32,415 nucleotides of DNA from Limisphaerales bacterium. Lineage in GTDB: Bacteria > Verrucomicrobiota > Verrucomicrobiia > Limisphaerales > UBA11358. Below the pieces are notes generated by a model, which was given only the letters and a program-made list of their open reading frames with translations, did no database searches and was not told where the DNA came from. The translations under genes were made by a program, and so were the position numbers. Shown here one piece after another: positions 7,305 through 31,248 of this stretch. The first letter of the stretch is position 1, and every line of letters starts with the position of its first letter. The DNA lies in contig PLYV01000223.1 of the NCBI GenBank assembly GCA_003151855.1, positions 1-32,415 of the forward strand, read 5' to 3'.

Positions 7305-7335
7305 GGCGGGGGGGCAGTGGATTTTTGAACCATGA
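7207..7335 (+). pseudogene. 3' remnant of a LuxR/NarL-type response regulator
   Basis: In a frame different from the esterase, 7207-7335 encodes 42 residues that begin like the end of a LuxR-type helix-turn-helix: IREKLQVRSRSQAVAKF matches the recognition-helix end and the following helix of NarL/FixJ regulators. The frame ends at a TGA (7333-7335) overlapping the ATG of the next gene. No upstream part of the domain is present, so it is a fragment left at a recombination junction near 7206. The match is by eye to the family pattern. It is short, but the pattern is characteristic. Confidence 0.6.
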
Positions 7336-10973: not shown

Positions 10974-13900
10974 CTAATACTTCAGCCGGTAGAACACCGT
11001 GGGCTTGGCCGGATCAATCGTGATGGTGGCACTCCCATCGCCAACACCCGACACCGGGCTCCAGCCGGTCGGACTCAAACCAGTGGAGAGGTTGTTGGTC
11101 TGCGCCTCCAGCGTCCACCCTTGGCCGGCGGGCCAGGTCAGATGCAGCGAGTTTCCGCTGATGCTGTTGGTGATGACTCCCGGACCACTCGGGCCGGCGG
11201 TCACCACGCTCAACACACCATTGTTGAAGCTGTAGCCCAATCCGCTGCCGGCACTGCCAACCACGGTCAAGGTGCCCGTGCCGCCGCTCGGGAAGAGGCG
11301 GAAGCTGTTGCCCACCGCCAAGGCCGGGCCGAGGTTGTTGACCGTCAGCATGCCGCCGTAGGTCAACGTGCCGCTCACATTGACGAAGTCGTTGGACTGC
11401 GCCGGCGAGAGGCTCCGGTTGAGTTCGACCAGCGTGTTGCCGGACAACGAGAGATTGCCGTTGATGGTCAGCGTGCCGATGGACGCGCCGGGTGACAGCG
11501 TGCCAGCAGAATTGACCGTGACGGAATTGTTGACCGTGCCGGTGCCGCCAAAGGTGCCGCCATTCACCGTCACCGGGCTGGCAATGGTGCCGTTCACCAG
11601 TAATGTGCCGTTGCTGACCGTTGTCGCGCCGGTGTAGCTATTGGCCGTGGACAACAATGTGAGGGATCCCGACCCGACTTTGGTCAGGGCCGTGCCTCCG
11701 GTAGCCCAATCAATGATTTTTCCGGCAAAGGTTGTGCTGGTGCCCAACGCGCCCACTTCAAACGTGGTCGGCGACGCGGATGAGGAACCGCCTTTAAGAA
11801 TGGTATTCGCATTCGTGCCGGAAATACTGCCCATCTTGACCCGGGTGCAGGCAGGGTCTGCCACTTGCGTCACGCTGTAGCCAACGTCTCCCAAGTTCCA
11901 CGCCGTGCCGGAGGCATCAAAGTTGGTCACCTGTGCGCCCGTGCCGCCATCAGAGACACCGCTGTAGGCGATGCCGTTGAACACGAAACTATTGTTGTTG
12001 GCGGCGGAGCCGAGAATGATGGTTCCGTTAAACGTGGCGAGCGGATTGCCATTCCAAATCAATCCGGGCTGGTTGACCCCGCTGTTGTTCTGGAACTTGA
12101 GCGTTCCCGTGCCCGTCCAATTCACGTTGTCACCGGCCACCCACAGGTTGCCGTAGTTGTTCACGGAATCGTCAATCACGTTGGTGGTTCCGGCCGGAAT
12201 GACCAGGCTGTTGCCGAGGTAACAGGCGTTCGCGCTGTTCCAGGAACCGCCGCCGCCGGCTTGCACCACGATGGTGCCGTTGCTGAGGGTGAGCGCGCCG
12301 CCGCTGAAGGAATTGTCGGCTCCGTTGGGCAGGATTACCGAGCCGCCGAGAATCTTGGTGTCACCGGAATAGGTGTTGTTCTTGCTGATGGTGAATGCTC
12401 CCGAACCCACTTTCACCAGCGAGATCGGCCCCAAACTGTTCACGATCATGCCAGCATAGGTCGAACTGGCGTCACCATTCCCGATAGTCACGGTGGAGGC
12501 ATCCAGGCCCAGATTGTCAATAGTGCCCCAATCCGACAGACCGTTCATGGAGACATTGGTGCCATGCACGTCGAGGGTTGTGCCGCTGCTCAGAATCACG
12601 TTGCCCTTGCCCGCGCCACTCGGTATGGCGCCGCTGCTAGCCGCTATTAACATACCAGCGGAGAGGGTCGTATTCCCGGTGTAGGTGTTCGCACCCGCCA
12701 AGGTCACGCTGCCGGAGGAGACCGCCAGAGCGGTATTACCGGACACAGGCCCCGCCAGCGCGATGCCCGCGCCAGAATCGTTGACAATGAATCCAGGATT
12801 CAAAACCACGGGCGTGGAGATGGTTTGCAGATTGGCTGAACTGTTGTTCAGCGGGCCGCTCAAGGTCAGCGATTTGCCGGACGTGCTGCCAATCGTGAAA
12901 ACGTCCGCCGAACCATCAAAGGTCAGGCTCGCCACGTCGTAGTTTGCTTCCAGGTTCGGCGTCAAGCGCGTGCTGCCGGTGAAGATCACAGTGTCACCGG
13001 AATAGCCCGGCGCCAGACCGCCAGACCAGTTGGCATCGCTGCCCCAGTTGTCATTGGCCGCCAAACCGCTCCACGTTTCGGTGGTCGAATTGACGGTCAA
13101 GGTGGCCGCGCCGGTGCCTACCGCCGAACTGGTGTCCGTCGCTGCCACGCCGATGGAATCCGATCCCACCACGGCACCCGGGCCGACGACCACCGGGCCG
13201 TATGAATATTCATAGGTGCTGCCGGAGCTGGTCACCAGCGTCATGGCTTGCGTCGCCGAGCCTCCAATCGCACTTAAGTCCACCGTCACACTGCTGATGT
13301 TGTTCAGCGTTTTTTGCACGACCGCATACGCGGTCACCGACTGACCACGCGTAACCACCGTGGAGCCGTCAGCAACATTGGTGACCGTGACGCTGGTGAC
13401 GATCGGCGGAGGATTGACCGAATAATGCAGAACCACGTTTTTTCCACTGGCTTTGATCCACCAATTTGCGGAGTCGCCGGGCGGCGTGCTGTCAAACACC
13501 AGCACCGGAATGCTGCTCATCGTCAGCGTGCCGGTGACGCTGAAAAGAACATAGTCGCCCGTCTCATCCAAATTACCGCCGCCGGTCATGGCATTGATGT
13601 GAATCGTATCGGCCGTGCCGAGCTTGAGGTTGCCATTGACGACCACTTGGTCATTACCGGTCAGGTGATTATCGCTCAAGTCAAAGGCCGCCGAACCTCC
13701 GGCATTCATGGTCAAGTTGTTCTTGAAGGTCAAGGTGCCAACCACCCAGGCTCCCGCCGGCGAAATCGTCGAACCGCTGTTGGCCGTCGTCACGGCGCCC
13801 GTCACCGTGCCGATGCCGGACAAAGTCTGAGCGCTGCCCAGCGTGTAGGAACTCGCCGCCGAAACGTCGAACACGCCGCCGCTGCCCACGATAATGTTGG

Positions 13901-16900
13901 CGGTGCCGCTGATGTTGCCGCCGCCGCTCAGGGCCAAGGTGCCACCATTGATGAGTGTGTCACCGCTGTAGAGGCTGTTGGCCGTGAAGGTGAGCTTGCC
14001 GGAGCCGGTTGAATTCGTGAGCACCAGACCACCGGAGTTGCTGTTGGGGATGGCCGACGCAAAGGTCACGTTGGTGCCGTTCAAGTCAATCAAGATCGGA
14101 TTGCCGCTGTTGACGAAGTGCGAGGCGTAATCAGCCTGATTGGCCGCCGAGTATTGGAGCATGCCGCCACTGAAGGTAATGGGAGTGTTCGCGCTGAACA
14201 GATTGGCACCGCCAACGTTCAGAATACCATCAGAGATGTTAACGCCGCCGGTCATCGTGCTGGTTCCGCCAGTCAGCGTCAGCTTGCCCGTGCCGACCTT
14301 GTTGAGTGCCATCGTGCCACCGTTATCAAGGAGCCTGCCAGCGAATGTGGAATCCGCGTTAAGCCCGCCCACCTGAACAGTATGGAGTCCCGACCCGTTA
14401 CAGGCGAGGGTTCCCGCGCCACTCAGCGAGCCGAACTCAATCACTCCGCCAACGCCGAAATCAAGCGTCACAAAGCGATCCGGCGCGCCGCCAATGGACC
14501 AGGGAATCCCGGCGTTGCCTGAGGTCGTGGATTTGAACCGGACGACGGTCTGGTTGTTGCCGGTCAGCGGAATCGTGATGCTGCCGCCAGACATGGTGTT
14601 GGCGCTTAAACCGACGTTGAGGGAGTTGATTCCCGGAGACGCGCCGCCGAGGATCAGGTTGCCCGTTCCAGTCAGGCTGCCCCCGACCCAGAAATCGGAT
14701 ACCGCCCCCAGCTTGATGGTGCCGCCGCCAGCGCCCACCACGACATCATTCCACATCCCAACTCCCGCCGAGTTTTGCACGGTGCCGCCATTCAGCGTAA
14801 GAGTTCCCGTGCCGAGCGCTGCGTTGTTGCCAACGCCCACAATGCCGTTACTGATCGTGACGCCGCCGGTGAAGGTGTTCGCACCGGACAATATCAGTGT
14901 GCTGGAGCCGGCCTGGATCAATGAACCGGCACCGGAGATGATGCCGGACATGGTTTGCGCCGCCGTGCTGTTAAACCACAGCGCGCTCTCGACATCAACA
15001 TTGGTAGCATAGTTACCACTGCCCAACTGACCCGCGCCGGCAACTTGCAGCGTGCCGGCGGAAACGGTGACGGCACCGGTGAACGTGTTGGTGCCTGTGA
15101 GCGTGAGCGTATTGTTTCCAACCACGGTGAATCCAGCGCCTGTGTCGGAGACTGGACGAGTGATCGCCACGTTACCCACCGCCAAGCTAATGGTTGGCGC
15201 GCCGCTCAACGTCACCGGCACATCCAACGTCTGCACGTTGGCCGAGTTGTTGGTCAAGCCACCCGTCAGCGTCAGCGTGCTGCTGGAATTGGTGATGTCA
15301 AAGCTGCCAGCGCCACTGTTGAAGGTTAGCGAAGCCATGCTGGTGCTGGCATCCAAGTTGTTGGTCAGCCGGGTCGAACCGTCAAACGTCGCACTGTCGC
15401 CAGCGCCGGGGCCATGCCCCAAATTCCAGTTGCCGCCCGTGCTCCACTTATTGTCACTGCCGCCGCCGCTCCAGGTCGGATTGGAGTTGGCCACCGTGAT
15501 GCCCGTCACGGACCAAGCGGCACTGCCGCCATTATTCTGGTTGACCACACCGCTCACGGTGTAGCTCCCCGTCGCCAAAGTGCCAGACACATTGAACGTG
15601 CCGGTCCAGTTGCCGGCTCCATTGCCGCCCGGACCGGTCAGGGTGACCGGGTCGCCGGCTCCGCCCAAGCCATCCACGCCAACCGTCACACTGGTAATGC
15701 TCTGTCCCGATGCCGGCGTCACGTTCACGGTGATGGTGGTGCTCTGATAATGCACCAACGAACTGGGCGACGCGCTGGCGGAATTGACCGTGGGCGCACT
15801 GATGACCGTCAAGGCCGCACCCGCACCGGTGGTAGTCCCATAACTATCGGTCGCCCGAAGCCGATAGTAGGTGGTTCCTAAAGTCGAGGTGTTCGGCGTA
15901 TAGGTGGCGGACGTGGACGAGCCGGAAGCGTTCGCCCAGGTGTTGCTGTCAGGACTGCTCTGCCATTGGTAAGTTAAACCCGTGCCGGCACTGCTCACCG
16001 TCGCACTCGCGGTCACCGCCGTGTTCAGATAAACCGGACTGACCGGCGAAAAGGTTGTTTTTCCAACAGTGGGAGGAGCGCCCGGGACCTGATAATGAAG
16101 CACCACGGTGGTGGCAGACTTGACGATGCTGTAATAGCTCGAATTCGCCGGTGTGCTGGTGCCCCAAGCCAACGTGGGGGTGCCGCTTCCAGAAATGGAA
16201 CCGGCCGTAAACAGCGTGTAGTCCGCCGTATCAAGAGTGCTGGTGGTGATGGGATTGATCTTGATGGTGTCAGCACTGCCAATGGTGAGGGTGCCGGTCA
16301 CGGCAACCTTGTCATTTGCGCCGGCGGCGGAATTGCTGAGATCAAAGATGTTGGTTACTCCAGAACAGGTGACGTTGCCAGTGCAGGTCAATGTCCGGCC
16401 AGTCGTGGAATTGGTGCCCGGAGACAGAACCGTCGTCGAACCCAAAGACACATTGCCGCCGATGGTGCCCACGCCACCCACCGCAGTGCCGGCACCGCTG
16501 GCTGTAATCGCGTCGGAACCGGCGCCGGTCGCGCTATCCACCAGCAAGGTGCCGCCGCTGACCGTTATTGTGCCACCAGTGAGCGTGCTGGTGCCGGCAA
16601 GCTCCAGTGTCCCCGCGCCGGCTTTCGTAAAGCTCGAACTGCCGTTGGCAACCATTCCCCCCATGACACTCAAATCAATCCCGCCGGGCACCGTGCCTTG
16701 AGCAGTATTGATCGTCAACCCGTCCGCGCGCAGCACAATCGGCGCGTAGATGGTGGAAACAATATTGGTGGCCAGACTGTTGAGGCCGCTGCTCGAACCA
16801 TTGAAATTGATACCGGCCGTGCCCGTGTTGGCAACACTGTTTGTTATCGTGCCGCCCGTCAAATTGAACGTGGTGATCCAACCGTTGTTCCCGTTTTGCG

Positions 16901-18059
16901 CATTGTCCAGCGTGCCGCCGACGATGTTGACGGGCGTAGCCACTGCTCCGGAATTGTAACCCAACGCATCGGCAGCCGTCATCTTCACCGTCGCGCCGGG
17001 ATAGATGGTGAGCGTGTTCCTGACCTCCCCGTTGCCACCGCCAGCCCCCAAGGCCAGAGTTCCCTGATATACCAACGTGCCACCGGTGTAGCTATTTCCT
17101 CCGGTTAAAGTCAAAGTCCCCGGGCCGGCCTTGTAGAGAAGTTTAGCCGTCGAACCGTTATTTTGAATACTTGAATTAATCGTGCCGGTGTCTGGCACAT
17201 AAATGTAAAGCCCGTCATTGTTGGCTTTTAACGGTCCCGAACCATTGATGGTGCCGCCATTTTGAAGAATAATACCCGTGTCTATATAAGTATTGCCACC
17301 GTTATCCGTCAGGGTGGCACCACTCACCAAGAGCGAGGCCCAAGAGGCATTGGGGGACACGGTGGTATTACCAGTAACCTTCACGTTGTGCGCATCCGTA
17401 TTTGCTGCCGTTGTATAGGTAGCAGCCACAATCGTTCCGCCGCTGTTTCCGGCGCTCGCCCAGTCATAGGTATTATTGCCATTGTCGATCACAAACCCCG
17501 GACCCGTCAGCCCGGTATTGGCCACAGCACCAGAACGCCAGTTCCACCCATCGGCAGCGGTCGTGGTCTTGGTGCCGGTGCCTGATATAATCACCATCGC
17601 TCCTGCCGGGCCGTATTGGGTGGGCAAACTGCCAAGGGCGAGCGTGGCTCCTGCCCCCACATTCCATTTCTGGAGACCTGCCGCAGGTGTAATCGCCGCA
17701 TTGATCGTCTCGGTGCCGCTGGTCAGCGCACTGGCATCAATGCCGCCGGTGCCGAGCGTGAGGCCACTGCCGCCAATGGTGAACAAACTCGCGCCACTGT
17801 TGAAAGTCAGTTTATTGACCGTCAGGCCGGAAATGTTGTTGTTCAAGGTCAGGCCGGACGATCCCGCCGCGCCGAACACCAGCGAGTCGCCGTTGGCTGG
17901 TGGCGTGCTGCCGCCGGCCGTGGTCCAGTTGCCGGCCGTGGTCCAGTTCGCGTCGGTATTTCCGCCCCAGGTATCCGTGCCGGCAGCAAGAGCGGAGCCG
18001 GTTGACAGCGCCACTGCCAGAATAGCGCCGAACAGTTGTATGGTTGTTTTTTGTTTCAT
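10974..18059 (-). CDS. Giant secreted protein with autotransporter-associated beta-strand repeats (2361 aa)
   Basis: Residues 1-25 are a signal peptide (MKQKTTIQLFGAILAVALST, ending SALA). Three large homologous modules follow, each opening with a DTWGGNTDANWTTAGNW-like segment: near residues 27, 863 (SGGGSDNKWSTGGNWNLG) and 1658 (WSGLAANDNWGSDANWSGG). Each module contains many PATR units (PF12951) of the form LTLTGGNSYTGGTLVYQGTL, which predict a long right-handed beta-helix. Ig-like segments lie between modules (about 658-756, about 757-860 and again before 1658). The protein ends in a module finishing TVFYRLKY. There is no autotransporter beta-barrel, so classical type V secretion is unlikely despite the repeat family's name. 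It is probably a surface fibre or adhesin; ligand unknown. The sequence is low in charge and rich in Gly, Thr, Ser and Asn. Confidence 0.9.
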   Translation of the reverse strand: MKQKTTIQLFGAILAVALSTGSALAAGTDTWGGNTDANWTTAGNWTTAGGSTPPANGDSLVFGAAGSSGLTLNNNISGLTVNKLTFNSGASLFTIGGSGLTLGTGGIDASALTSGTETINAAITPAAGLQKWNVGAGATLALGSLPTQYGPAGAMVIISGTGTKTTTAADGWNWRSGAVANTGLTGPGFVIDNGNNTYDWASAGNSGGTIVAATYTTAANTDAHNVKVTGNTTVSPNASWASLLVSGATLTDNGGNTYIDTGIILQNGGTINGSGPLKANNDGLYIYVPDTGTINSSIQNNGSTAKLLYKAGPGTLTLTGGNSYTGGTLVYQGTLALGAGGGNGEVRNTLTIYPGATVKMTAADALGYNSGAVATPVNIVGGTLDNAQNGNNGWITTFNLTGGTITNSVANTGTAGINFNGSSSGLNSLATNIVSTIYAPIVLRADGLTINTAQGTVPGGIDLSVMGGMVANGSSSFTKAGAGTLELAGTSTLTGGTITVSGGTLLVDSATGAGSDAITASGAGTAVGGVGTIGGNVSLGSTTVLSPGTNSTTGRTLTCTGNVTCSGVTNIFDLSNSAAGANDKVAVTGTLTIGSADTIKINPITTSTLDTADYTLFTAGSISGSGTPTLAWGTSTPANSSYYSIVKSATTVVLHYQVPGAPPTVGKTTFSPVSPVYLNTAVTASATVSSAGTGLTYQWQSSPDSNTWANASGSSTSATYTPNTSTLGTTYYRLRATDSYGTTTGAGAALTVISAPTVNSASASPSSLVHYQSTTITVNVTPASGQSITSVTVGVDGLGGAGDPVTLTGPGGNGAGNWTGTFNVSGTLATGSYTVSGVVNQNNGGSAAWSVTGITVANSNPTWSGGGSDNKWSTGGNWNLGHGPGAGDSATFDGSTRLTNNLDASTSMASLTFNSGAGSFDITNSSSTLTLTGGLTNNSANVQTLDVPVTLSGAPTISLAVGNVAITRPVSDTGAGFTVVGNNTLTLTGTNTFTGAVTVSAGTLQVAGAGQLGSGNYATNVDVESALWFNSTAAQTMSGIISGAGSLIQAGSSTLILSGANTFTGGVTISNGIVGVGNNAALGTGTLTLNGGTVQNSAGVGMWNDVVVGAGGGTIKLGAVSDFWVGGSLTGTGNLILGGASPGINSLNVGLSANTMSGGSITIPLTGNNQTVVRFKSTTSGNAGIPWSIGGAPDRFVTLDFGVGGVIEFGSLSGAGTLACNGSGLHTVQVGGLNADSTFAGRLLDNGGTMALNKVGTGKLTLTGGTSTMTGGVNISDGILNVGGANLFSANTPITFSGGMLQYSAANQADYASHFVNSGNPILIDLNGTNVTFASAIPNSNSGGLVLTNSTGSGKLTFTANSLYSGDTLINGGTLALSGGGNISGTANIIVGSGGVFDVSAASSYTLGSAQTLSGIGTVTGAVTTANSGSTISPAGAWVVGTLTFKNNLTMNAGGSAAFDLSDNHLTGNDQVVVNGNLKLGTADTIHINAMTGGGNLDETGDYVLFSVTGTLTMSSIPVLVFDSTPPGDSANWWIKASGKNVVLHYSVNPPPIVTSVTVTNVADGSTVVTRGQSVTAYAVVQKTLNNISSVTVDLSAIGGSATQAMTLVTSSGSTYEYSYGPVVVGPGAVVGSDSIGVAATDTSSAVGTGAATLTVNSTTETWSGLAANDNWGSDANWSGGLAPGYSGDTVIFTGSTRLTPNLEANYDVASLTFDGSADVFTIGSTSGKSLTLSGPLNNSSANLQTISTPVVLNPGFIVNDSGAGIALAGPVSGNTALAVSSGSVTLAGANTYTGNTTLSAGMLIAASSGAIPSGAGKGNVILSSGTTLDVHGTNVSMNGLSDWGTIDNLGLDASTVTIGNGDASSTYAGMIVNSLGPISLVKVGSGAFTISKNNTYSGDTKILGGSVILPNGADNSFSGGALTLSNGTIVVQAGGGGSWNSANACYLGNSLVIPAGTTNVIDDSVNNYGNLWVAGDNVNWTGTGTLKFQNNSGVNQPGLIWNGNPLATFNGTIILGSAANNNSFVFNGIAYSGVSDGGTGAQVTNFDASGTAWNLGDVGYSVTQVADPACTRVKMGSISGTNANTILKGGSSSASPTTFEVGALGTSTTFAGKIIDWATGGTALTKVGSGSLTLLSTANSYTGATTVSNGTLLVNGTIASPVTVNGGTFGGTGTVNNSVTVNSAGTLSPGASIGTLTINGNLSLSGNTLVELNRSLSPAQSNDFVNVSGTLTYGGMLTVNNLGPALAVGNSFRLFPSGGTGTLTVVGSAGSGLGYSFNNGVLSVVTAGPSGPGVITNSISGNSLHLTWPAGQGWTLEAQTNNLSTGLSPTGWSPVSGVGDGSATITIDPAKPTVFYRLKY

Positions 18060-19220: not shown

Positions 19221-19300
19221 GGTCAATAAAGACCTGACAGTCACCTTTCTGGAAGGAATCTGTCAGGAACGATTGACCCTATTGAAAAACCCTTTAAAAA

Positions 19301-19378
19301 TGGTCGGGGCGGGGAGATTTGAACTCCCGACCTCTTGCACCCCAAGCAAGCGCGCTAGCCGGGCTACGCTACGCCCCG
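19301..19378 (-). tRNA. tRNA-Pro (anticodon GGG)
   Basis: The minus strand folds as a full cloverleaf. The acceptor stem CGGGGCG (19378-19372) pairs with CGCCCCG (19311-19305). The anticodon stem CTTGC/GCAAG encloses the loop TTGGGGT, giving anticodon GGG. The T arm is GGGAG-TTCAAAT-CTCCC. Discriminator A is at 19304 and an encoded CCA lies at 19303-19301. It is flanked on both sides by decayed integrase genes, so it appears to be an integration site. Confidence 0.95.
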
Positions 19379-19907: not shown

Positions 19908-20591
19908 CTACTCTCTGCCGCTGTTTCGCAGTCTGATTTGACGGAAACGCCAGAGCAGAAACGCGCCGGACACGACTAGCAACAAGGGTTCCGGTTCCGG
20001 AACCGTGGTGATTTGCAGGCCCCAGTTCACCAACACGGTTGGTTCACCGTCGCTCGACAGATCGGCCACGAACAGTGTCCAGGTGCCGTTGGCCGGGCGG
20101 TCGTTGAATTGGTTCAGCAGGGCCGTTGGATTCACGGTTTCGTTGACGCTGCCCGGATCCACAGCACGTCCGTCAGGCTGCCAGGTGCCGAGCAGACGGC
20201 CGCTGGCGTCGAAGGTGGGGCTGAACTGTTCATACCAATGCACGTTGTTCGCGGCCCGGTCATCAAGCGTGATGTTTAGGCCGGGCGCGCCGTAGCCAAA
20301 CGGGTTGGTTGAAGCCATGCCGACACAATTCAGCAGCACGGAAAACTGGCCGTCAAAGGTCAGATAGGCGTAAAGGTCGGCGTTGCGCGGAACGTCCAGG
20401 CTGATGTTCACGTTCAGGTCGGAGATCGCGCCCTGCGTGCCGGCGACGGTTTGCTGGTTGATCATGCCGCTGGAGTTGCCGTCGGGCACGGCACCGTCCA
20501 CGGCGAAACTGAAGACGTAAGCATTGGTTTGACCCAATGCCGTCGCGACCATGGCGGCGGTGAAAAGCGCCGTGACTACTGCTTTGATCAT
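19908..20591 (-). CDS. PEP-CTERM protein with P-domain-like fold
   Basis: Starting at ATG 20591 (MIKAVVTALFTAAMVATALG) rather than the TTG at 20603, the protein has about 227 residues. A signal peptide is followed by a beta-sandwich of the proprotein-convertase P-domain type: ISDLNVNISLDVPRNADLYA, then LLGTWQPDGR, FNDRPANGTWTLFVADLSSD and VNWGLQI. The end is a PEP-CTERM sorting tag: VPEPEP, a hydrophobic stretch LLLVVSGAFLLW, and a basic tail RFRQIRLR. Such tags are recognised by exosortase in species that make an exopolysaccharide, so the protein should be processed at the envelope. The longer protein at 20866-23973 has the same P-domain-like fold but a different C-terminus. The gene's 3' end abuts the integrase remnant. 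The repeat element at 20631-20798 starts only 40 bp upstream of its ATG. Confidence 0.85.
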   Translation of the reverse strand: MIKAVVTALFTAAMVATALGQTNAYVFSFAVDGAVPDGNSSGMINQQTVAGTQGAISDLNVNISLDVPRNADLYAYLTFDGQFSVLLNCVGMASTNPFGYGAPGLNITLDDRAANNVHWYEQFSPTFDASGRLLGTWQPDGRAVDPGSVNETVNPTALLNQFNDRPANGTWTLFVADLSSDGEPTVLVNWGLQITTVPEPEPLLLVVSGAFLLWRFRQIRLRNSGRE

Positions 20592-20630
20592 TTTCAATTT
20601 CAAGTTTTTAGCTGGAACAATGTAGTTCGA

Positions 20631-20865: not shown

Positions 20866-23800
20866 TTACGGATAGACGGTGCGGTAGAACCGCATCGAAG
20901 AGCCGGACGTATCCGTGTATTGGAACGCGCCGACGCTGTTCGCCGTCACACTCTCAATATCCTGCCAGACAAACGGACCGGTGACGTCCGAGTATTGCAG
21001 GCGATAGGTGCGGCCGGGGATGCCGTTGCCGTCAATGCGGAAGGAACCGTTGTCCAGATTGACGATGACCAGGTTCTGGCTCGGCGCGTTGTCCACCTTG
21101 ATGGCGACTGTCACGGTGCCCGTGGCGCTGCCGCCGTGGCCGTCCGTGACGGTGTAGGTGAACGAATCCGCATTGGTGAAGCCGGGAACCGGCGTGAAGA
21201 ACACCCAGGCACCGCTGACGGTGACCGTGTTGTTGCTGGCGCTGGTCGCGCTGACGGTGATGGTAAGTGTGTCGCTGTCCGCATCGCTGGCCTTGCCCAG
21301 CAGTTCCGCGAGCCGGACTTTCACGCCTTGCGCCGGATAGCGCTCAATGGTGTCGCCGCCGGCGACCGGAGGCGTGTTGATGACCTGGCTTTGCGCCAGC
21401 GTGTTGGTGACGCCGGCGAAGTTGGCGTTGCCAGCATACTCAGCCACGATGGTGTGCGAGCCGTGCGCGAGGTTGTTGGTGGTGAAGGCAGCCTGGCCAC
21501 CGGACAAACCGCCGGTTCCCAGGACGCTGCCATCCGCCTTGAAGGTCACCGTTCCGTTCGGCGTGCCGACACCGGGGGCGACCGCGCTGACGGTCATTGT
21601 GAACGTCACGTCCGCGCCGGGCAGCGCCGGGTTGGCCGAGGAAACCAGATCGCCCGAGGTCAGCGAGTTGGTGATGGTGAGCGTGCCGTCAACATAGTTG
21701 AACGAGTAGTTCGCACTCGTTGCGCCGCTGGCGGTGATGGGATAGGTGCCGGCACTGCTGCTGGCCGTGGCCTCGGTTGTGATGGTCGCCAGACCGGTCA
21801 GGTCATTGGTGCCTTGATTGAGCGCGAACCCGCTATAAGTCGCCGTGAAGACCGGCAATGCCGCGCCATACGCCTTGCTCTTGTCCTGGGCGGTGACGGT
21901 GATGGTAACCTGGCCGACCGACAGGGTGCCGGTGTTGGTGGTGACGGTGTAGTTGGCCAGCTTGCTGCCCGGATCGCTCAAGACTGGCGTGATGGCGTAG
22001 CCGCTCACCGGACTGTTGATGTCAGCCGTCGTGACAAACGTGGCGGTGATGTTGTCGCCATTTTGCTGGCCGGTCACGCTGCCGGTGAAGGCCGGATTCG
22101 CCGCGCCGTAGAGGCGGTTGGTATTGTCCGCCGTGACGATCAAGCCCGCAGACGTCACTGTCAGCGTGCCGTTGGTGAAGTCAAACGCGTAATTGGTGGA
22201 GCTGAGGCTGCCCACGCTCGCCGTAATAGTGTAGTTGCCCACAACGCTGTTGGTGTTGGCGCTCGTGGTCAACGACGGACTGCCGCCCAGCACGCTTTGG
22301 GATTCTCCATCCACAAAGCCGCTGTAGCTGGCCGTGAAGGTTGGATTGGCCGCGCCATAAACGCGGTTGGTGTTGTTGGCCGCGACGATGATGAGGGCTT
22401 TGCCGACGGTCAACGTGCCGTTGGTGAAGGCAAAGTCATAGTTGGTGGCACTGAGGCTGCCCAGGCTTACCTCAATGGGGTAGTTGCCCACAACGCTGTT
22501 GGTGTCGGCGCTCGTGGTCAATGCCGGGCTGCCCGAAAGCACGCCGGCAGTTTCGCCGTTGACGAAGCCGCTGTAGCTGGCTGTCAGCGTCAGATTCGTC
22601 GCGCCGTAAATGCGGCTCTGGTCATCCGCCGCCACCGTCACCGTGGCTTTGCCGACAGTCAACGTGCCGTTGGTGAAGGTGAAGCTGTAGTTGGCCGCGA
22701 TCAACGAGCCTGCTCCCGCTGTGATTGTGTAATTGCCCACGACGCTGTTGGTGCCGGCGCTCGTGCCCAACGCCGGGCTGCCCGAAAGCACGCCGGCAGT
22801 TTCGCCGTTGACGAAGCCGCTGTAGCTGGCCGTGAGCGTCGGGTTGGCGGCACCGTAAATGCGGTTCTTGTTGCCAGCCGCGACGGTGATGGAAGCCTGG
22901 CCGACCGACAGTATGCCGGTATTGGTGGTGACGGTGTAGTTGCCCAGCTTGCTGCCCGGATCGCTCAACACGGGCGTGATGGCGTAGCCGCCCACGGGAC
23001 TGCTGGTGTCAGCCGTCGTGACAAACGTGGCGGTGATGTTGTCGCCATTTTGCTGGCCGGTCACGCTGCCGGTGAAGGCCGGATTAGCCGCGCCGTAGAG
23101 GCGGTTGGTGCTGTTCGCCGTGACGATCAATGAAGCGTTCAGGACGTTGATGGCGACATGATTGGTGACTGGCAGAAAGCTGCTTGCATCCGTGGGAGTG
23201 AAAATCACCGTGAGCGTCTGGCTCGATCCCGCGTTCAACACCGTGCCAGCGGCGGGCGAGTAAGCAAAGGTGCCCGGCACGTTCGTTGAGTTGTAAGTCG
23301 CCGTCGCGTTCAACTGCGTTCCGCCGAGCGCCGTGCCATAGGTGATGTCCGCCGGGTTCGCCCATGTCAGCGTCGGATAGGCTCCGCCGGAAATTTGCAG
23401 TGACCATTCGGTGAGCATGTTCGTGCCGCCGGATTCAACATCGGAAACATAGAGTGTCCATTCCCCAGCGGCGTTGAGGCCGTTAAAACTGCTCAACGCG
23501 GTGGCGCGCGCGGCGGCGTCGGTGACATTCGCGGGATCATTCGTGCGGCCATCCGGCTGCCAAGTCCCCATGAGCGGCGAACCGTCGGCGAGGTTGGTGA
23601 CGCTCTGATAAAGATGCACGTCGCCATTCGCCGCGCCGTCCTGGAAGGTCACGTTGAAACCGCTGTCGGCATAGCCGGCGGCGTTCCCGGCGGTTTTCCC
23701 CGGACGGTTGAGCAGCACGCTGTAGCCGCTGGAATGGCGAAGATAGACATAGAGGTCGCCGTTGAATTCACCGGTGAGTTTGAAGCCCACCTTCAGCGAC

Positions 23801-23973
23801 GTGATGTTGCCGATGGCGGAGCTGATGTTTTGCACGTCGCTCAGGCCGGCGGCGTTGCCGTCGGGCACCAGGCGGTTGGTGGTGAACGTGTAGGTTTCGA
23901 TGGTTTGCGCCTGGAGGAGCGGCGTTGCCGCCCACAGGCATACCAGCATGATGGCTGCTATTAGTTTTTTCAT
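20866..23973 (-). CDS. Secreted protein with P-domain-like fold, six MBG repeats, Ig-like and cadherin-like domains
   Basis: The frame is open from 24072, but a signal peptide begins at ATG 23973 (MKKLIAAIMLVCLWAATPLL), giving about 1035 residues. Order: P-domain-like sandwich (about 25-200; LTGEFNGDLYVYLRHSSGYS, GTWQPDGR, NAAGEWTLYVSDVESGGTN), an Ig-like unit (about 202-282), six MBG-type units (about 283-770; each with NRIYGAANPTLTASYSGF or similar and a YTITAG... NYSFTFTNGTLTV end), a bacterial Ig-like domain (about 771-868), a cadherin-like domain (about 869-961) and a C-terminal module (IPGRTYRLQYSDVTG to MRFYRTVYP). It lies just after the 2390-residue gene on the same strand with no terminator between, so they probably form an operon. 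It is likely a surface stalk or adhesin. Repeat units are close at DNA level, so recombination may change their number. Confidence 0.88.
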   Translation of the reverse strand: MKKLIAAIMLVCLWAATPLLQAQTIETYTFTTNRLVPDGNAAGLSDVQNISSAIGNITSLKVGFKLTGEFNGDLYVYLRHSSGYSVLLNRPGKTAGNAAGYADSGFNVTFQDGAANGDVHLYQSVTNLADGSPLMGTWQPDGRTNDPANVTDAAARATALSSFNGLNAAGEWTLYVSDVESGGTNMLTEWSLQISGGAYPTLTWANPADITYGTALGGTQLNATATYNSTNVPGTFAYSPAAGTVLNAGSSQTLTVIFTPTDASSFLPVTNHVAINVLNASLIVTANSTNRLYGAANPAFTGSVTGQQNGDNITATFVTTADTSSPVGGYAITPVLSDPGSKLGNYTVTTNTGILSVGQASITVAAGNKNRIYGAANPTLTASYSGFVNGETAGVLSGSPALGTSAGTNSVVGNYTITAGAGSLIAANYSFTFTNGTLTVGKATVTVAADDQSRIYGATNLTLTASYSGFVNGETAGVLSGSPALTTSADTNSVVGNYPIEVSLGSLSATNYDFAFTNGTLTVGKALIIVAANNTNRVYGAANPTFTASYSGFVDGESQSVLGGSPSLTTSANTNSVVGNYTITASVGSLSSTNYAFDFTNGTLTVTSAGLIVTADNTNRLYGAANPAFTGSVTGQQNGDNITATFVTTADINSPVSGYAITPVLSDPGSKLANYTVTTNTGTLSVGQVTITVTAQDKSKAYGAALPVFTATYSGFALNQGTNDLTGLATITTEATASSSAGTYPITASGATSANYSFNYVDGTLTITNSLTSGDLVSSANPALPGADVTFTMTVSAVAPGVGTPNGTVTFKADGSVLGTGGLSGGQAAFTTNNLAHGSHTIVAEYAGNANFAGVTNTLAQSQVINTPPVAGGDTIERYPAQGVKVRLAELLGKASDADSDTLTITVSATSASNNTVTVSGAWVFFTPVPGFTNADSFTYTVTDGHGGSATGTVTVAIKVDNAPSQNLVIVNLDNGSFRIDGNGIPGRTYRLQYSDVTGPFVWQDIESVTANSVGAFQYTDTSGSSMRFYRTVYP

Positions 23974-24075: not shown

Positions 24076-27000
24076 TTATGGATAGGTTGAGCGATAGAAT
24101 CGTGCCGGCAGGTTGGTGCCGGGTGAATCGGTGTATTGAAACTGTCCGGTGGCATCCGCCGCCGCCGTGCCCAGGGATTGCCAGTTGGGTGTGGCCAGGT
24201 TGGTTGTGTATTGGATGGTATAAGTGCGCCCAGGTATGCCAAAGAAACTCGTAAGCAAGCTGCCGTTGCCGAGGTTTTGGGACAGCTCGGTGTTTTGCGC
24301 CGCATTGGTGTCGGAAACAATCGCCACCGTCACCGAGCCGGTGGCTTGCAGGCTGCCGTCAGTTATAACATAGGTAAAGCTGTCCGCATTCGTGTAGCCG
24401 GCGGGACGCGTGTAAAAAACCCAGCCGTAGTTGGTCGTGACGGTGCCGCCCTGCGCGCTCGCGGCATTGACAGAAATAAGCGAGATGGCATCGCCATCCG
24501 CATCCGTGTCGTTGGCGAGCAGCGATGTCACGCGCATCTTCGCGCCGGTGGTTGGGTAGCGTTGCAGCGTGTCGCTGCCGGCGATGGGCGCGCTGTTGAT
24601 TGCCTGATTGGAGCCAAGCGTGTTGGTGCTGCCGGCGAAATTCCCGTCGCCGGCATATTGCGCCGTGATGACGTGCGTTCCATGCGAAAGTGAATTGGTG
24701 GTCAGGCTGGCGATACCGCCGCTCAACGTCGCCGGTGCGCCGAGCGCGGTGCCATCGGCCAAAAATTGAACCGCGCCCGTCGGTGTGCCGCTGGCCGGCC
24801 CCACCGCCGTCAAGGTGGCTGTAAAAGTCACATTAGAACCGGTTGGTGCCGGATTGGATGAGGAAGAAACGACGTTGGTGGAACTGGCTTTTGTAATGGT
24901 GAGCGAGCCGTTGTTGAAAACAGTGAAGCTGTAGTTAGTCGCAGTCAAACTGCCCACCAACGGTGTAATCACATAGCTACCGACCGGACTGCTATTAGTG
25001 GCGGACGTGCTGAAACCCGGCGTGCCGAGCACAACACTGGCGGTTTCGCCATTGACGAAGCCGCTGTAACTGGCCGTTAACGACGGGTTAGACACGCCGT
25101 AAATGCGGTTGGTGTTGTTCGCCGTCACCGTCAGGGCAGCCGCCGTCACCGTCAGCGTGCCGGCATTGGTGGTGACCGTGTAGTTGCCCAGCTTGTTGCC
25201 CGGATCGCTCAAAACCGGCGTGATGGTGTAACTGCCCACGGGACTGTTGGTGCCGGCTGTCGTGGTGAAGGTGGCGGTGATGCTGTCGCCGTTTTGCTGG
25301 CCGGTCACGCTTCCGGTGAACGTCGGATTGGCCGCGCCATAAACGCGGTTGGTGCTGTTGGCGGTCACGGTGAGCGTGGCGGCGGTGATGTTCGCGGTCA
25401 GGCCCGTCGGCGGCGTCAGCGTGTAGTTGCTCGCCGCGCTGCCCGTCAATGTCAGCCCGCTCACCGTCACCGTCTTGCCGGTGCCAACCGCCGCGCTCGA
25501 AAACGTCGCGCCGTATCCATTCGTCGAAAGCACCACGTTGCCGGAGTCGCCTGCGACCACGCCGCTCAAGACCACGCTGTTCGAGTTGATCGTCGCCGTT
25601 GTCGTGCCGTTGTAGGTTTTGCTGTTGGCCGTGATGCCGGAAGCCACGGTCACGACCGCCTGGTTGACGTTGAAGGCGAGCGCGGCAGACGTGCTGGCCG
25701 TGTTGGTGACGTCGCCGGCATACACCGCCGTGATGGAATGTGAACCATAGGCAAGTGTGCTGATGCTGAAGGCGGCGACCCCGGCTGAAATCGTTCCCGT
25801 TCCCAGCGTGGTTGCGCCGTCCTTGAAAGTAACACTCTCGCCATTAGTGGGAGCGGGACTGATCGTGGCGGAGAAAGTGACGGAGTTGCCGTAGGTGGAG
25901 GGATTGCTGCCGGAAGTCAAAGCTAGGGTATTTGTAGTAACATTCTGAACGGTCAGGTTAAGGTTGCCGCTCGAAACAGAAATGGAGGCGGTCGTTCCGG
26001 CAGCGATGCCGGAGCCGGAAACAACAACCGGCGTGGCGTTGGGCGTGCCGGAAATGGAGCCGCTGGAGCCGTTGCCGACTTGAACGAGGCGGTAAACGCC
26101 CGCGCCGAGCGGAGTGGCGGCGGCGTTGGTGATGGTGATGCCGTTGTTGTTCAGCGTGAGCGAGGCGTTGGTGACCAGCAACGCGGGATGGGTGGTATCG
26201 CCGCTGAACGAGACGGGTGTGAAATTGAGGATGATGGAATTAGTGTTCAGGTTGACCGTGCCGCCGCCGTTGATGGTGGCGGCGGTGGAGCCGGGAGCGG
26301 TGCCGGTGCCACGGGCTTGCAAAACAGTGTTACTGCTGAGGTTGAAGGTTGATACAGCCGACACATCAAAGGTGCCGCTGGCGGCGAGAAATATATTCGC
26401 CGAATTACTGATGGATCCGGTGTTGCTCAACGCCAGGGTGCCGGCGTTGACTACCGTGCCGCCGGTGTAGGTATTCGCACCGGACAACGTCAGGGTGCCG
26501 GAGTTGAGCTTGGTCAAGCCGCCGTCAACTGCGTTGTCGCCGGCAATGCCGCTATGAACCAGCGGCTGGCTGATCGTGATGTTGAATCCGGCACTGTCCA
26601 CCACTGCGCCGCCATTGCGCACGTTCGCGGTCTCTCCACTGCTGGGAAGAAAGTCCGTGCGGCTGGCGCTGGCCGCCAGCGTGCCGCCGTTAAAATTGAT
26701 TACCTCCATGCCGCCACCGAATCGAAACAGCAGCGGCGTAAGACGACCGCCATTCAGATTGAGCGTTGAGTGTCCGTTGCCCTCACTCATGGAAAGGCCA
26801 AGAGTGCCGGTATCGTTCACCAGGACGCTGCCGCTGTTGATGGTCAGCGCGGCGTCGCCGTTGCGGGCAACCTGGAAACCATAGTTGTTGGTAACGATGA
26901 ATGAGCCGCCGGCGATGGTCATGTTGTTTGTGGTTCCCGCGGTGTCGCCCAATGGGAACCAGGCACCACCGTTGCCGGAACCCACGGCGAAAACAGCGTT

Positions 27001-30000
27001 GCTGCCGATGGTCACATTCGCGCCCTGGTCAAACTTGCTGTTGCCGTTGTTTTGGAACACCACAAAACTGCCGTTGGTGATCAGCAAATTGCCGCCGAGA
27101 CTGCTGTTCCCCGCGAAAAAGTAGTTGAAGGTGTTTGTGCCGGAGAGCACCAACAAACCTTGATCCCGCACAATCAATCCAGGGAAAGCCGGGCCAGCCG
27201 ACGGATTCATTTGAAGCTGGGCCGTCCGGTTGGTCAGCGTGTCCACGATCACGCTTCCGGTTCCACTGGCACCGTCGGCTCCGCCACTCAAGGTTGTCGC
27301 TTGCGGGCTGGTCAGGTTGGCGGCGACTTGCAAAACAACGCTGGTGGCGTTGGAGGCCAGGGTCAACAGGTTGGCAGCGGCCCCAAGCGCCGCCGCGTTG
27401 GAAACGACCAAGGTGCCGGCGTTGACCACTGTGCCGCCGGTGTAGGCGTTGTTGCCTGACAGCGTCCAGGTGCCGGTGCCGTTTTTCACGATGGTGGTCG
27501 CGCCGCCGCTGCCCGAAATATTTCCAGCGATTTCGCCCGCGCCGCTGGTTGAACCTTGAAGAATGAGGTAATGGGCGCGAACGCCGCCCTGACTCAGACT
27601 GCCGGTAAATTTCAACAAGCCGGACCCTGACTGGTCAATGACCTGGTTGGGTTCGTAGTCGGAACCGTTGGCAGCGGTGTAACTGATGACGCGATCCGAT
27701 GTTTCCCCGGTGCCGGTGTAGAACAATGTTCCGTTAGCCCAGGAGCCGCCCAGGTTGATGTCCGACACATTTCCCAATGCCTTGCTCACGGATGAAACGT
27801 TCAAAACGCCGCCACCGACGACTTTCGTTTGTCCAGAGAACGTATTCGTGCCGGAAAGCGTCACGGTGCTGCCGCTGACCTGCAACAAGCCGCTCCCCGA
27901 AATCGGGCCATCCAATGTCTGGGCCACAGACGAACTAAAAGTCATGGTGCCGCCATTGCTGATCGCGCCCGAATACGAGCCGGCGCCCAGCGAACCGGAA
28001 CCGCTGATGGACAGTGTGCCAGCGTTGACTACCGTGCCGCCGGTGTAGGTGTTCGTGCCGGAAAGCGCAAGCGCGCCCGGTCCAGCCTTGGTTAAATTAT
28101 ATCCAGAACCACCATCACTGATCGCGCCCGAAATATTCAGGTCAATTCCACTGGGCACCGTTCCAGCCGCAGTGGTAATAACCACCCCGTTTGTCCGGAG
28201 CACAACGGGACCGCTGATGGTGGAAACGATATTTGTGGCTAGACTGTTGATGGCGCTTGATGAACCGTTGAAATTATAGCCGCCACCACCGGTGGAACTC
28301 ATCGTGCCGCCGGTCAAATTGAATGTGGTGATCCAGCCGTTATTGGTGCTCGTGCTGTTATCCAAGGTTCCACCCACGATGTTGACGGGCGAGGCCACTG
28401 CTCCATAGCCAAGCGCATCTTGGGCACCCAAACTCACAAGGGCGCCTGAATTGATAGTGAGCGTTCCGAGAACACACGCAGACGAGCCACCCACAGCCAG
28501 CGCCAGCGTTCCACCACTGACAACCGTGCCACCGCTATAAGTGTTGTGACCGGAGAGCGTCAGATTGCCAGCGCCGGCCTTGGTCAGTGAGTAACCGCCG
28601 CCAATCGCCCCGCCGACGGTCAGCGTGTTGGTGCTGACGGTGACTTGCCGGTTTCCACCCAGCGTCACCGCGCCGGGGCCGAGGTTCAAACTTTGTGAGC
28701 CGACAAATGTGAAATCTGAGTTCCAGTTTTCGGGGTTGACGTTGCCATTCACCAGATTCGCCAGCGAACAATCCAGATTGCCGCCGGCCAGGGTAAGGGT
28801 GCTGGTTCCATATAATGCGTTTGTGCCGCCAAATACCAGCGTGCCGGAGTTCACTGTGACAGCGCCAGAAGAACCACCGGCATACACAGAGCCATTATTC
28901 GTTCCATCAAGTGTCACTGCCCCAGTGCCATTCAAATTCAAGTAAAGGTTTCCGCCCGACCCGGCATTGGTGAATTGAATGCTGTTTCCAAACAGCCAGT
29001 TTCCAGAGCCATACAAGTCCAACTCATGATTGCCACCACCACCGCTCTGCCACGAGGAATTAAGGAAAGACACGGTTGAAGCTGAATTATTCGTCCAGTA
29101 GTGGTAATAGTCATTTCCTATGTAAAGATTACCACCGTTGACACCCGAAAAGGTCAACGCACCAGCGCCAGAAGATACTGACAACGCCGGCCCAATTCGA
29201 AAATCCGAGTTCAAATAAATGGTTACCGGGTTCACCTGTCCAGATGTCAGGTTTAGGTTGACGCCGGGAGGACCAAAAGTGGTGTTGTTTGTTATTAACT
29301 GCGGATTATTTGCCGTTGTGCCAATCCATTGCAGCGTGTCGCCAGCGGCAGGAGTCACCTGTGCCCCCGTGCTGTTGGTCCAGTTGGCGGAAGTGTCCAC
29401 ATAATGGTCGCCAGCCGCATTTGTCCAAGTGTCAATGCTCACGTTGACTGTCAACGCCGCCGTGTTTGATCCCGTCAGCGGCGTCTGGTCCATGGCCGTC
29501 ACCGTCAGATTGTAATTATCGGCGGCGGTGGAAGGTGCCATGGTGAAAGTATTGGTGTAGAGACTCGAACTGTTCGACTGCACCAGCGTTCCGGTGCCAC
29601 CGCCAATGGCCGACAGGTTGACCGTCACATTCGTCACCGGCGCGCTGCCGGCCGTCACCGTCGCGGCAATGGTGACGTTTTGGTTGCGCAGGGCCGGCGA
29701 CGGGCTGGCCGTGGCGGTGAGCGTCGGAGCGGCCGGAGTGCAATGCAACTGCACGTTCGTGCTGGTGACAACCACCGAGAAATAAGAATTGTTGAAGGGC
29801 GCAACATCGAAGACGGCGGAAGCCGATCCGGTCACACTGGCCGCCCTGGCCAGAATGTAGTTGTGCGCGAAGTCCAGATAATCGGAGGTGCCCGGCGCCC
29901 GCAGATGAAACACCGTGCTGTTGAGCGCCAACGTGCCGCCCACGACGATTTGGTCGTTGGTCCCGTTGTAGGCATCTCCCAAATTCATATAGACCGTCGC

Positions 30001-31248
30001 GCCGCTCACATTGGTCAGGTTGTTGTTGTAAGTGTTGGTGCCATAAACGCCGGCAACGCCGTTGTCGGCGTAAATCTTGGAACCGGAGGTTGTGTTGAAC
30101 GAGCCGTTGACGGTGCCGCTGCCATACAAGATTTGACTGCCGCCCAGTGTATAACCCGCGACCCCTGAAACGTCGAAAGTCGCGCCGTTGGAAACCGTGA
30201 TGTTGGGCGAATTGTTAATTGAACCGCCGCTCAAGGCCAGCGTGCCGGCATTGATGGTCGTGTTGCCGGTGTAGATGTTCGCACCGGAAAGTGTGAGCGT
30301 TCCGTTGCCCGCCTTGGTCAAAGAGTAACTCCCACCGATGACACCACCGACGGTCAGCGTGTTGGCGCTGACGGTGACTTGCCGATTTCCACCCAGCGTC
30401 ACCGCGCCGGTGCCGAGATTCATATTTTGCGAGCCGACAAACGTGAAGTCCCCGTTCCAGTTCTGCGGGTTGACATTGGCGTTGACCAAGTTGGCCAATG
30501 AACAGTCCAGATTGCCGCCGGCCAGGGTAAGGGCGCTGGTTCCATATAATGCGTTTGTGCCGCCAAATACCAGCGTGCCGGAGTTCACTGTAATGGTTCC
30601 AGCCGATCCGCCATAAAAAGTGCCGTTGTTCGTGCCATTAAGTGTCACTGAACCGGAGCCATACATGGAGAGATTAGACGCGCCGGAATTTGTGAACTGA
30701 ATATTGTTCCCAAACAGCCAGTTTCCTGTGCCATACAAGTCTAGCTCGTGATTACCGCCACCGCCACTTTGCCATGAAGAATTAAGAAAAGACACGGTTG
30801 AAGACGAGTTGTTCGTCCAGTAGTGTGCATAGTCATTTCCCATGTAAGGGTTTCCGCCAGTGTTGCCGTTGTAGGTCAATGCTCCGGCTCCTGATGCAAC
30901 ATTGATGCTGACAAACCTCATGTTTGAACTACCGTAAATGGTTACCGGGTTCACCTGTCCGGCAGTCAAATTGACACTGACACCCGGAGAGCCTTCAGCG
31001 ACGTCGTTTGTTATCAACTGCGGATTATTTGCCGTCGCGCCAATCCATCGCAGCGTGTCGCTAGCGGCAGGAGTCACCTGTGCCCCTGAACTGTTGGTCC
31101 AGTTGGCGGAAGTGCCAACATAATGGTTGCCGGCCGCATTTGTCCAAGTGTCAATACTTTGCCCCAGAGCCACCCCGGCACCGGAAAGGCCGGCGCATAT
31201 TGCGAGCAGGCTCAAATACCTGAAAAATATTTTGGGGTCAGCGCGCAT
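24076..31248 (-). CDS. Giant secreted protein with autotransporter-associated beta-strand repeats, MBG/YDG and Ig-like domains (2390 aa)
   Basis: The signal peptide is in residues 1-30 (FFRYLSLLAICAGLSGAGVA, then LGQ). Residues 31-330 and 603-905 are two close copies of one module beginning IDTWTNAAG and including HYWTNNSSSTVSFLNSSWQS and GNHELDLYGTGNWLFGN. PATR units (TLSGANTYTGGTVVNAGTL type) fill up to about 1770. Then come an Ig-like domain (about 1772-1862), a YDG-type unit (about 1866-1956), two MBG units (about 1957-2117), an Ig-like domain (about 2119-2216), a cadherin-like domain (about 2217-2316) and a C-terminal module (IPGRTYTIQYTTNLATPNW to ARFYRSTYP). There is no autotransporter barrel. 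The tail half closely parallels the protein encoded just downstream. Its ATG overlaps the stop of a 116-residue gene by 11 nt, so translation may be coupled. A long surface fibre or adhesin is the likely role. Confidence 0.9.
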   Translation of the reverse strand: MRADPKIFFRYLSLLAICAGLSGAGVALGQSIDTWTNAAGNHYVGTSANWTNSSGAQVTPAASDTLRWIGATANNPQLITNDVAEGSPGVSVNLTAGQVNPVTIYGSSNMRFVSINVASGAGALTYNGNTGGNPYMGNDYAHYWTNNSSSTVSFLNSSWQSGGGGNHELDLYGTGNWLFGNNIQFTNSGASNLSMYGSGSVTLNGTNNGTFYGGSAGTITVNSGTLVFGGTNALYGTSALTLAGGNLDCSLANLVNANVNPQNWNGDFTFVGSQNMNLGTGAVTLGGNRQVTVSANTLTVGGVIGGSYSLTKAGNGTLTLSGANIYTGNTTINAGTLALSGGSINNSPNITVSNGATFDVSGVAGYTLGGSQILYGSGTVNGSFNTTSGSKIYADNGVAGVYGTNTYNNNLTNVSGATVYMNLGDAYNGTNDQIVVGGTLALNSTVFHLRAPGTSDYLDFAHNYILARAASVTGSASAVFDVAPFNNSYFSVVVTSTNVQLHCTPAAPTLTATASPSPALRNQNVTIAATVTAGSAPVTNVTVNLSAIGGGTGTLVQSNSSSLYTNTFTMAPSTAADNYNLTVTAMDQTPLTGSNTAALTVNVSIDTWTNAAGDHYVDTSANWTNSTGAQVTPAAGDTLQWIGTTANNPQLITNNTTFGPPGVNLNLTSGQVNPVTIYLNSDFRIGPALSVSSGAGALTFSGVNGGNLYIGNDYYHYWTNNSASTVSFLNSSWQSGGGGNHELDLYGSGNWLFGNSIQFTNAGSGGNLYLNLNGTGAVTLDGTNNGSVYAGGSSGAVTVNSGTLVFGGTNALYGTSTLTLAGGNLDCSLANLVNGNVNPENWNSDFTFVGSQSLNLGPGAVTLGGNRQVTVSTNTLTVGGAIGGGYSLTKAGAGNLTLSGHNTYSGGTVVSGGTLALAVGGSSACVLGTLTINSGALVSLGAQDALGYGAVASPVNIVGGTLDNSTSTNNGWITTFNLTGGTMSSTGGGGYNFNGSSSAINSLATNIVSTISGPVVLRTNGVVITTAAGTVPSGIDLNISGAISDGGSGYNLTKAGPGALALSGTNTYTGGTVVNAGTLSISGSGSLGAGSYSGAISNGGTMTFSSSVAQTLDGPISGSGLLQVSGSTVTLSGTNTFSGQTKVVGGGVLNVSSVSKALGNVSDINLGGSWANGTLFYTGTGETSDRVISYTAANGSDYEPNQVIDQSGSGLLKFTGSLSQGGVRAHYLILQGSTSGAGEIAGNISGSGGATTIVKNGTGTWTLSGNNAYTGGTVVNAGTLVVSNAAALGAAANLLTLASNATSVVLQVAANLTSPQATTLSGGADGASGTGSVIVDTLTNRTAQLQMNPSAGPAFPGLIVRDQGLLVLSGTNTFNYFFAGNSSLGGNLLITNGSFVVFQNNGNSKFDQGANVTIGSNAVFAVGSGNGGAWFPLGDTAGTTNNMTIAGGSFIVTNNYGFQVARNGDAALTINSGSVLVNDTGTLGLSMSEGNGHSTLNLNGGRLTPLLFRFGGGMEVINFNGGTLAASASRTDFLPSSGETANVRNGGAVVDSAGFNITISQPLVHSGIAGDNAVDGGLTKLNSGTLTLSGANTYTGGTVVNAGTLALSNTGSISNSANIFLAASGTFDVSAVSTFNLSSNTVLQARGTGTAPGSTAATINGGGTVNLNTNSIILNFTPVSFSGDTTHPALLVTNASLTLNNNGITITNAAATPLGAGVYRLVQVGNGSSGSISGTPNATPVVVSGSGIAAGTTASISVSSGNLNLTVQNVTTNTLALTSGSNPSTYGNSVTFSATISPAPTNGESVTFKDGATTLGTGTISAGVAAFSISTLAYGSHSITAVYAGDVTNTASTSAALAFNVNQAVVTVASGITANSKTYNGTTTATINSNSVVLSGVVAGDSGNVVLSTNGYGATFSSAAVGTGKTVTVSGLTLTGSAASNYTLTPPTGLTANITAATLTVTANSTNRVYGAANPTFTGSVTGQQNGDSITATFTTTAGTNSPVGSYTITPVLSDPGNKLGNYTVTTNAGTLTVTAAALTVTANNTNRIYGVSNPSLTASYSGFVNGETASVVLGTPGFSTSATNSSPVGSYVITPLVGSLTATNYSFTVFNNGSLTITKASSTNVVSSSSNPAPTGSNVTFTATLTAVGPASGTPTGAVQFLADGTALGAPATLSGGIASLTTNSLSHGTHVITAQYAGDGNFAGSTNTLGSNQAINSAPIAGSDTLQRYPTTGAKMRVTSLLANDTDADGDAISLISVNAASAQGGTVTTNYGWVFYTRPAGYTNADSFTYVITDGSLQATGSVTVAIVSDTNAAQNTELSQNLGNGSLLTSFFGIPGRTYTIQYTTNLATPNWQSLGTAAADATGQFQYTDSPGTNLPARFYRSTYP
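28550..29438 (-). repeat. Intragenic direct repeat, copy 2 (about 0.9 kb)
   Basis: This stretch encodes residues of about 603-900 of the 2390-residue protein and is highly similar in DNA to 30284-31157. Several runs are identical, for example around CCATATAATGCGTTTGTG at 28807 and 30542. Offsets of 1734 and 1719 bp at the two ends show only small indels. Confidence 0.85.
30284..31157 (-). repeat. Intragenic direct repeat, copy 1 (about 0.9 kb)
   Basis: This is the N-terminal copy of the duplicated module, just after the signal peptide. It differs from the 28550-29438 copy most in the segment around 30600-30700 and 30880-31010, while other blocks are nearly unchanged, a patchy pattern that suggests gene conversion or recent duplication. 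Confidence 0.85.

Follow-up and report, generated by a model that had tools for sequence, protein, structure and literature searches.

A large C-terminal domain family on diverse exported proteins of Limisphaerales and its possible role in protein targeting

Verrucomicrobiota abound in soil and water, where they degrade polymers; to our knowledge, how they place very large exported proteins outside the cell is largely unknown. This question is raised by the locus analysed here, a stretch of 32,415 nucleotides (the window) corresponding to contig C201 of a Limisphaerales genome of 3.82 Mb (331 contigs, estimated to be ~69.7% complete), which, among named genomes, is closest to those of uncultured Verrucomicrobia subdivision 3, Limisphaerales and Pedosphaera. 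From the sequence, four of its genes had been predicted to encode secreted proteins with different N-terminal domains and a similar C-terminus, possibly a sorting or attachment signal. Are these tails members of one family, are they bound to the end of the protein, and could they target their carriers?

All four tails were recovered and verified in the DNA (Table 1). The N-terminal regions differ as described (GDSL lipase; PATR; P-domain with MBG/Big domains; PATR with Big/MBG domains), yet the tandem genes 20866-23973 and 24076-31248 have an Ig/MBG stalk in common, and similar tails. Three of the four proteins stop with 0 residues after the tail. The claim that the tails lie at or close to the end thus holds for these three and fails for the esterase 5181-7304, which continues for 31 residues past RFYRVKLGP. 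Paralogues of this gene on contigs C43 and C38 end in RFYRIKLGPPLP or RFYRVKLGPPLP, directly followed by the stop codon. Since these paralogues stop right after the tail, the 3′ end of the window gene looks altered: at 7204-7304 (+ strand), the expected GPPLP-stop ending is replaced by unrelated residues, suggestive of a frameshift, a rearrangement or an assembly join. A LuxR-type fragment fused to this 3′ end, an idea formed by eye, received no Pfam support.

Table 1. Module copies, carrier proteins and PEP-CTERM genes close to module genes
Feature	Position	Strand	Description
Module copy 1	6996..7208	+	ends RFYRVKLGP, 31 extra residues after; HMM 97.8 bits
Module copy 2	10977..11186	-	ends VFYRLKY at stop; HMM 109.7 bits; AlphaFold model
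Module copy 3	20869..21081	-	ends RFYRTVYP at stop; HMM 111.4 bits
Module copy 4	24079..24285	-	ends RFYRSTYP at stop; HMM 107.3 bits
Carrier	5181..7304	+	signal peptide, GDSL lipase/esterase, Big_3_5, module copy 1
Carrier	10974..18059	-	signal peptide, PATR repeats, module copy 2; no autotransporter barrel match
Carrier	20866..23973	-	signal peptide (start 23973), P-domain, MBG_2, Big_3_5, Big_9, module copy 3
Carrier	24076..31248	-	signal peptide, PATR, Big_3_5/YDG/MBG_2, Big_9, module copy 4; no autotransporter barrel match
P-domain protein	19908..20603	-	PEP-CTERM-type end instead of module; P-domain 41% identical to that of carrier 20866..23973
PEP-CTERM/module adjacency set	contigs C43, C310, C312, C321, C38, C56, C76, C222, C293; window 19908-20603		

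The four window tails have little pairwise similarity (16-24% relative to the first row). Their real kinship became apparent with an HMM built from them, which added 54 loci of this genome to the four, many with E values of 1e-23 to 1e-6 (58 loci at E ≤ 1, 55 at E < 0.01, window copies included). A DNA pattern derived from the four tails was too narrow and gave 4 matches in this genome, while a profile built from 52 of the tails found raised the count to at least 74 loci. The likeness noticed in the window therefore extends, through the HMM, to a genome-wide set, and the carriers (59) account for 5.9% of the bases of the genome. Across 54 aligned tails, the Trp following the TNL motif is invariant (54/54), and the FYR motif is conserved as Phe in 50, Tyr or Phe in 54 and Arg in 50.

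The position of the module within its carriers was then considered. Read in frame one by one, 53 of the 58 copies in this genome lie 0-5 residues from the stop codon. The carriers are usually large and end 3-8 residues past the FYR Arg; this distance is 4 residues in 30 of 53 tails of the genome, nearly all the others falling within 3-8, and 4 residues in 50 of 57 tails from named species. The final residue is Pro in 37/53 and 53/61 tails of these two sets, respectively. Each carrier has exactly one module (58/58, HMMER --max), and simple hydrophobicity and charge criteria point to a Sec signal peptide in nearly all carriers whose N-terminus is complete. Five copies of the genome are not terminal: that of the window esterase and those on C97, C221, C313 and C205:3609. 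On C313, two related proteins, L110 (C313:3563-10826) and L225 (C313:1-5000), carry an internal module followed by ~145-160 residues of MBG-like repeats ending in NQ, and form a subfamily that breaks the terminal rule.

The same position was observed outside this genome, with 64 of 68 closed matches terminal in other species (57 named Verrucomicrobia subdivision 3 loci) and 31 of 32 module matches terminal in other lineages of the phylum. The seed does not account for the terminal position, which recurs in other species and lineages with a profile that holds no stop-codon information. Frequent internal hits, the outcome proposed beforehand as speaking against a terminal signal, were thus not what the HMM returned in any of the three sets. 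Within the order, 77 of 78 genomes carry the module, most with 20 to at least 74 copies. In a sample of the phylum 39 of 115 genomes were positive (E ≤ 1e-3), some with 20-49 copies. No relatives of the module were found in plasmid and viral collections.

Comparison of 52 tails with Pfam and NCBIfam gave no consistent match and no model covering the module, in line with the earlier statement that no named sorting system was known for it, and no paper naming this domain was found in the open-access literature. In particular, none of the 52 tails matched the T9SS CTD models (TIGR04183/PF18962, TIGR04131/PF13585) or the fn3 profile (PF00041). The module, about 70 residues long, represents a large C-terminal domain family without an earlier name.

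To which fold does it belong? A profile search against solved structures gave weak matches only, to a chitosan-binding module (E 0.01), Ig chains and FN3 domains. AlphaFold2, run with 47 relatives, predicted a confident 66-residue sandwich (pLDDT 91.8, pTM 0.73), which was also modelled in context. Compared with known structures, the predicted module resembles FN3 and cytokine-receptor domains at Z 4-6, a level that may reflect merely a common arrangement. Its predicted topology follows FN3 (PF00041) up to strand F, with the B and C strands lining up, but the structural alignments stop 15-20 residues short of the ends of single FN3 domains (e.g. 8..74 of 93 for 4lpw_A). The module therefore appears to be an Ig/FN3-like sandwich without the last FN3 strand (G), as read from the predicted structure and from where the FN3 alignments stop. 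It further differs from FN3 domains in being missed by the fn3 model and in being terminal rather than internal. An ordinary Ig/FN3 structure had been named as an argument against a sorting role; the predicted fold is indeed Ig/FN3-like, but it does not decide the matter because the CTDs of the type IX secretion system (T9SS) are Ig/FN3-like too.

We consider it fairly probable that the module ('FYR-CTD') acts in C-terminal targeting. Most likely it serves in sorting or anchoring and adds a new kind to the known class of C-terminal sorting domains. Judged from sequence, its terminal position, single copy, association with signal peptides, exchange as a cassette between proteins (see below) and lineage-wide spread would fit a sorting or attachment signal and give the original suggestion partial support; no dedicated secretion or processing enzyme was found. 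As with sorting signals in the sense of Haft, we found a C-terminal homology domain that occurs many times per genome, on diverse signal-peptide proteins, and is restricted to some genomes. When a cognate enzyme was sought by co-distribution, in the same sense, exosortase alone came forward, with an association that is confounded by phylogeny and has counterexamples.

A mechanism can be proposed on this basis. The carrier would first be exported by Sec, after which the module would adopt a small Ig/FN3-like sandwich fold. The final strand (FYRLxYP-COOH) would be left as an exposed edge, since strand G, normally the seventh, is absent. An envelope component might then recognise this open edge strand together with the free C-terminus, and recognition would result in the carrier being moved across, or fixed to, the outer membrane or the exopolysaccharide layer. 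The module could act like a T9SS CTD, in which the whole domain is the signal, or like PEP-CTERM, a signal swapped among proteins. In its most specific form, this proposal would involve a separate Verrucomicrobiota pathway of outer-membrane export and attachment, operating through edge-strand addition to the FYR strand of a C-terminal Ig/FN3 domain lacking strand G, and serving, in some genomes, more than 70 proteins alongside the exosortase/exopolysaccharide system; we regard this form as unlikely.

The main rival explanation, which we hold to be possible if rather doubtful, gives the module no sorting role. It would be an Ig/FN3-like domain of the ordinary kind, which caps repeat stalks or binds to carbohydrate or exopolysaccharide; its end position would be structural and historical, and carriers would be exported by a general route, e.g. 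type II. Its nearest folds being FN3 and Ig domains, the weak match to the chitosan-binding module, carriers that are often polysaccharide-active or repeat-rich, and the five internal copies are all consistent with such a domain. Secretins, found in 111 of the 115 genomes of the phylum sample, would provide a general route, but are uninformative because they are near universal in the phylum. Binding modules usually occur in tandem or at varied positions. In contrast, in three independent sets >90% of the present modules stand alone at the end of their protein, at a near-fixed spacing to the C-terminus, and the module is carried by unrelated N-domains, even in proteins without repeat stalks. 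In addition, the fn3 domains of the same carriers sit internally and have an unlike profile (hhalign probability 0.9% against the module profile). These features argue against the rival.

Could the targeting domain be that of a known system? T9SS CTD proteins have a signal peptide and a 70-80 residue Ig-like C-terminal domain, present in one copy on diverse exported proteins and with conserved last residues (PMC10202324). The module resembles type A CTDs on these points: it too is predicted to be Ig-like, lies in single copy at the extreme C-terminus of signal-peptide proteins with diverse cargo and has a conserved end. The Foldseek list also includes the T9SS cargo CTD 5hfs_A (TM 0.53/0.54 over 63 columns), which at an E value of 2.1 is a lead only. 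However, by sequence the module is not a T9SS CTD: its motifs are TNL, the invariant W and FYRLxYP, it has fewer predicted strands, and its tails matched neither Pfam nor NCBIfam CTD models. It also occurs in a different phylum, CTD proteins being restricted to Bacteroidota (PMC10202324). The SprA translocon (TIGR04189) was unmatched in the 115 genomes, a result that leaves its absence unproven as the positive control was silent too. That the Bacteroidota type IX system has a branch in Verrucomicrobiota, with these tails as its CTDs, is in our judgement very improbable.

The second known system is PEP-CTERM/exosortase (PF07589, PF09721), first described from a verrucomicrobium (PMC1569441). 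The coexistence of two routes, suggested by the P-domain protein of the window, was supported: the genome encodes about 16-17 PEP-CTERM proteins and three exosortases. The PEP-CTERM end of 19908-20603 taken alone is below the Pfam cut-off (E 0.11), and three homologues in the genome are above it. The PEP-CTERM proteins of this genome are all small (< ~410 aa), most module proteins being large. The two types of tail have much in common, both being C-terminal, present in many copies per genome, exchanged on the same N-domains and found in the same genomes and gene neighbourhoods. They differ in nature: PEP-CTERM consists of ~25 residues with a PEP motif, a transmembrane helix and a basic tail, whereas the module would be a folded soluble domain, and these three elements were absent from all 54 aligned tails. 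The module is thus not a PEP-CTERM either.

Could the tails nevertheless be degenerate PEP-CTERMs processed by exosortase? Co-occurrence is strong. In the phylum sample, exosortase was detected in 38/39 carrier genomes versus 42/76 others (Fisher p 9e-7), and in the order in 72/74 genomes with at least 4 copies versus 0/4 with 0-2 copies (Fisher p 1e-5). Since these four low-copy genomes fall in two families only, the association does not stand for a large number of separate events, and it would arise as well if all surface genes had been lost together. The link is suggestive, confounded by phylogeny and short of proving dependence; the co-distribution suggests that the module belongs to the same surface/exopolysaccharide programme as exosortase. 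Adjacency is also marked in this genome, where 11 of 17 PEP-CTERM genes lie ≤2.5 kb from a module gene (p ~1e-8), 7 of them within 500 bp. Against these points, exosortase was not detected in two carrier genomes, G157 (90% complete, with 60 copies) and G123 (57% complete, with 19 copies). PEP-CTERM adjacency gave 2 matches at 57 related loci, one of which looks spurious, and was accordingly rejected as part of the module system. The exosortase genes of the genome sit, by eye, among what seem to be exopolysaccharide genes, with no module gene beside them. In view of the composition of the tails, the two carrier genomes and the related loci, exosortase processing of the module is a highly unlikely explanation, even though anchors of the two types replace each other. 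This swap is best seen between neighbours on C310, whose N-domains are 71% identical over 243 aa, one ending in PEP-CTERM and the other in the module; it was also observed for the P-domain and a third family at ~40-50% identity.

Exchange is not limited to PEP-CTERM partners. The carriers include kumamolisin-type proteases, alginate and rhamnogalacturonan lyases, a rhamnosidase, a GH core, CotH, LRR, Ig arrays, propellers and PATR proteins, and tails up to 88% identical were found on proteins whose N-termini show no detectable homology. That one protein family simply expanded through duplication, with a tail that is not selected as a module, would account for the carriers that are N-terminal paralogues (e.g. 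the window esterase and its C43/C38 relatives) but is scarcely credible, being already contradicted by the 50 of 66 tail pairs with ≥50% identity that show no detectable homology in their N-terminal 400 residues, these N-termini forming 15 clusters.

Among the PATR proteins of the genome with an intact 3′ end, 21 finish with the module, one carries it internally and one is ambiguous. Many module carriers share PATR repeats (PF12951) with type Va autotransporters. They differ in that no autotransporter barrel (PF03797) was found in the PATR proteins scanned against Pfam, and the module takes the C-terminal place.

A single profile marks a large share of the exported set of these bacteria, in which proteins of 500-3000 residues comprise polysaccharide lyases, proteases and PATR or Ig-repeat proteins. 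It also provides a handle on the machinery, as a gene-by-gene comparison can be made between genomes of the same order with 0-2 and with >50 copies. For the exosortase link, G157 constitutes a useful test case.

Several other features of the window were observed. On the - strand, 2-3973 encodes the start of a giant secreted protein cut by the contig end, which resembles an alginate-lyase-like/LamG/fn3/PATR carrier on C310 and, by analogy, probably also finishes with the module. A sialate O-acetylesterase-like gene at 7332-9258 (+) lies in two overlapping frames (7332-8864 and 8200-9258) and is apparently frameshifted. At 18340-18747, an N-terminal alpha-L-fucosidase fragment runs into a 197-aa ORF of no assigned identity on the opposite strand (18651-19244), itself adjoining tRNA-Pro (19301-19378); the region 18340-19378 is possibly the edge of an inserted element. 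Finally, genes for ECF-type sigma factors adjoin module genes twice, at 4192-4581 (-) in the window and at L231 on contig C76, and could regulate the carriers.
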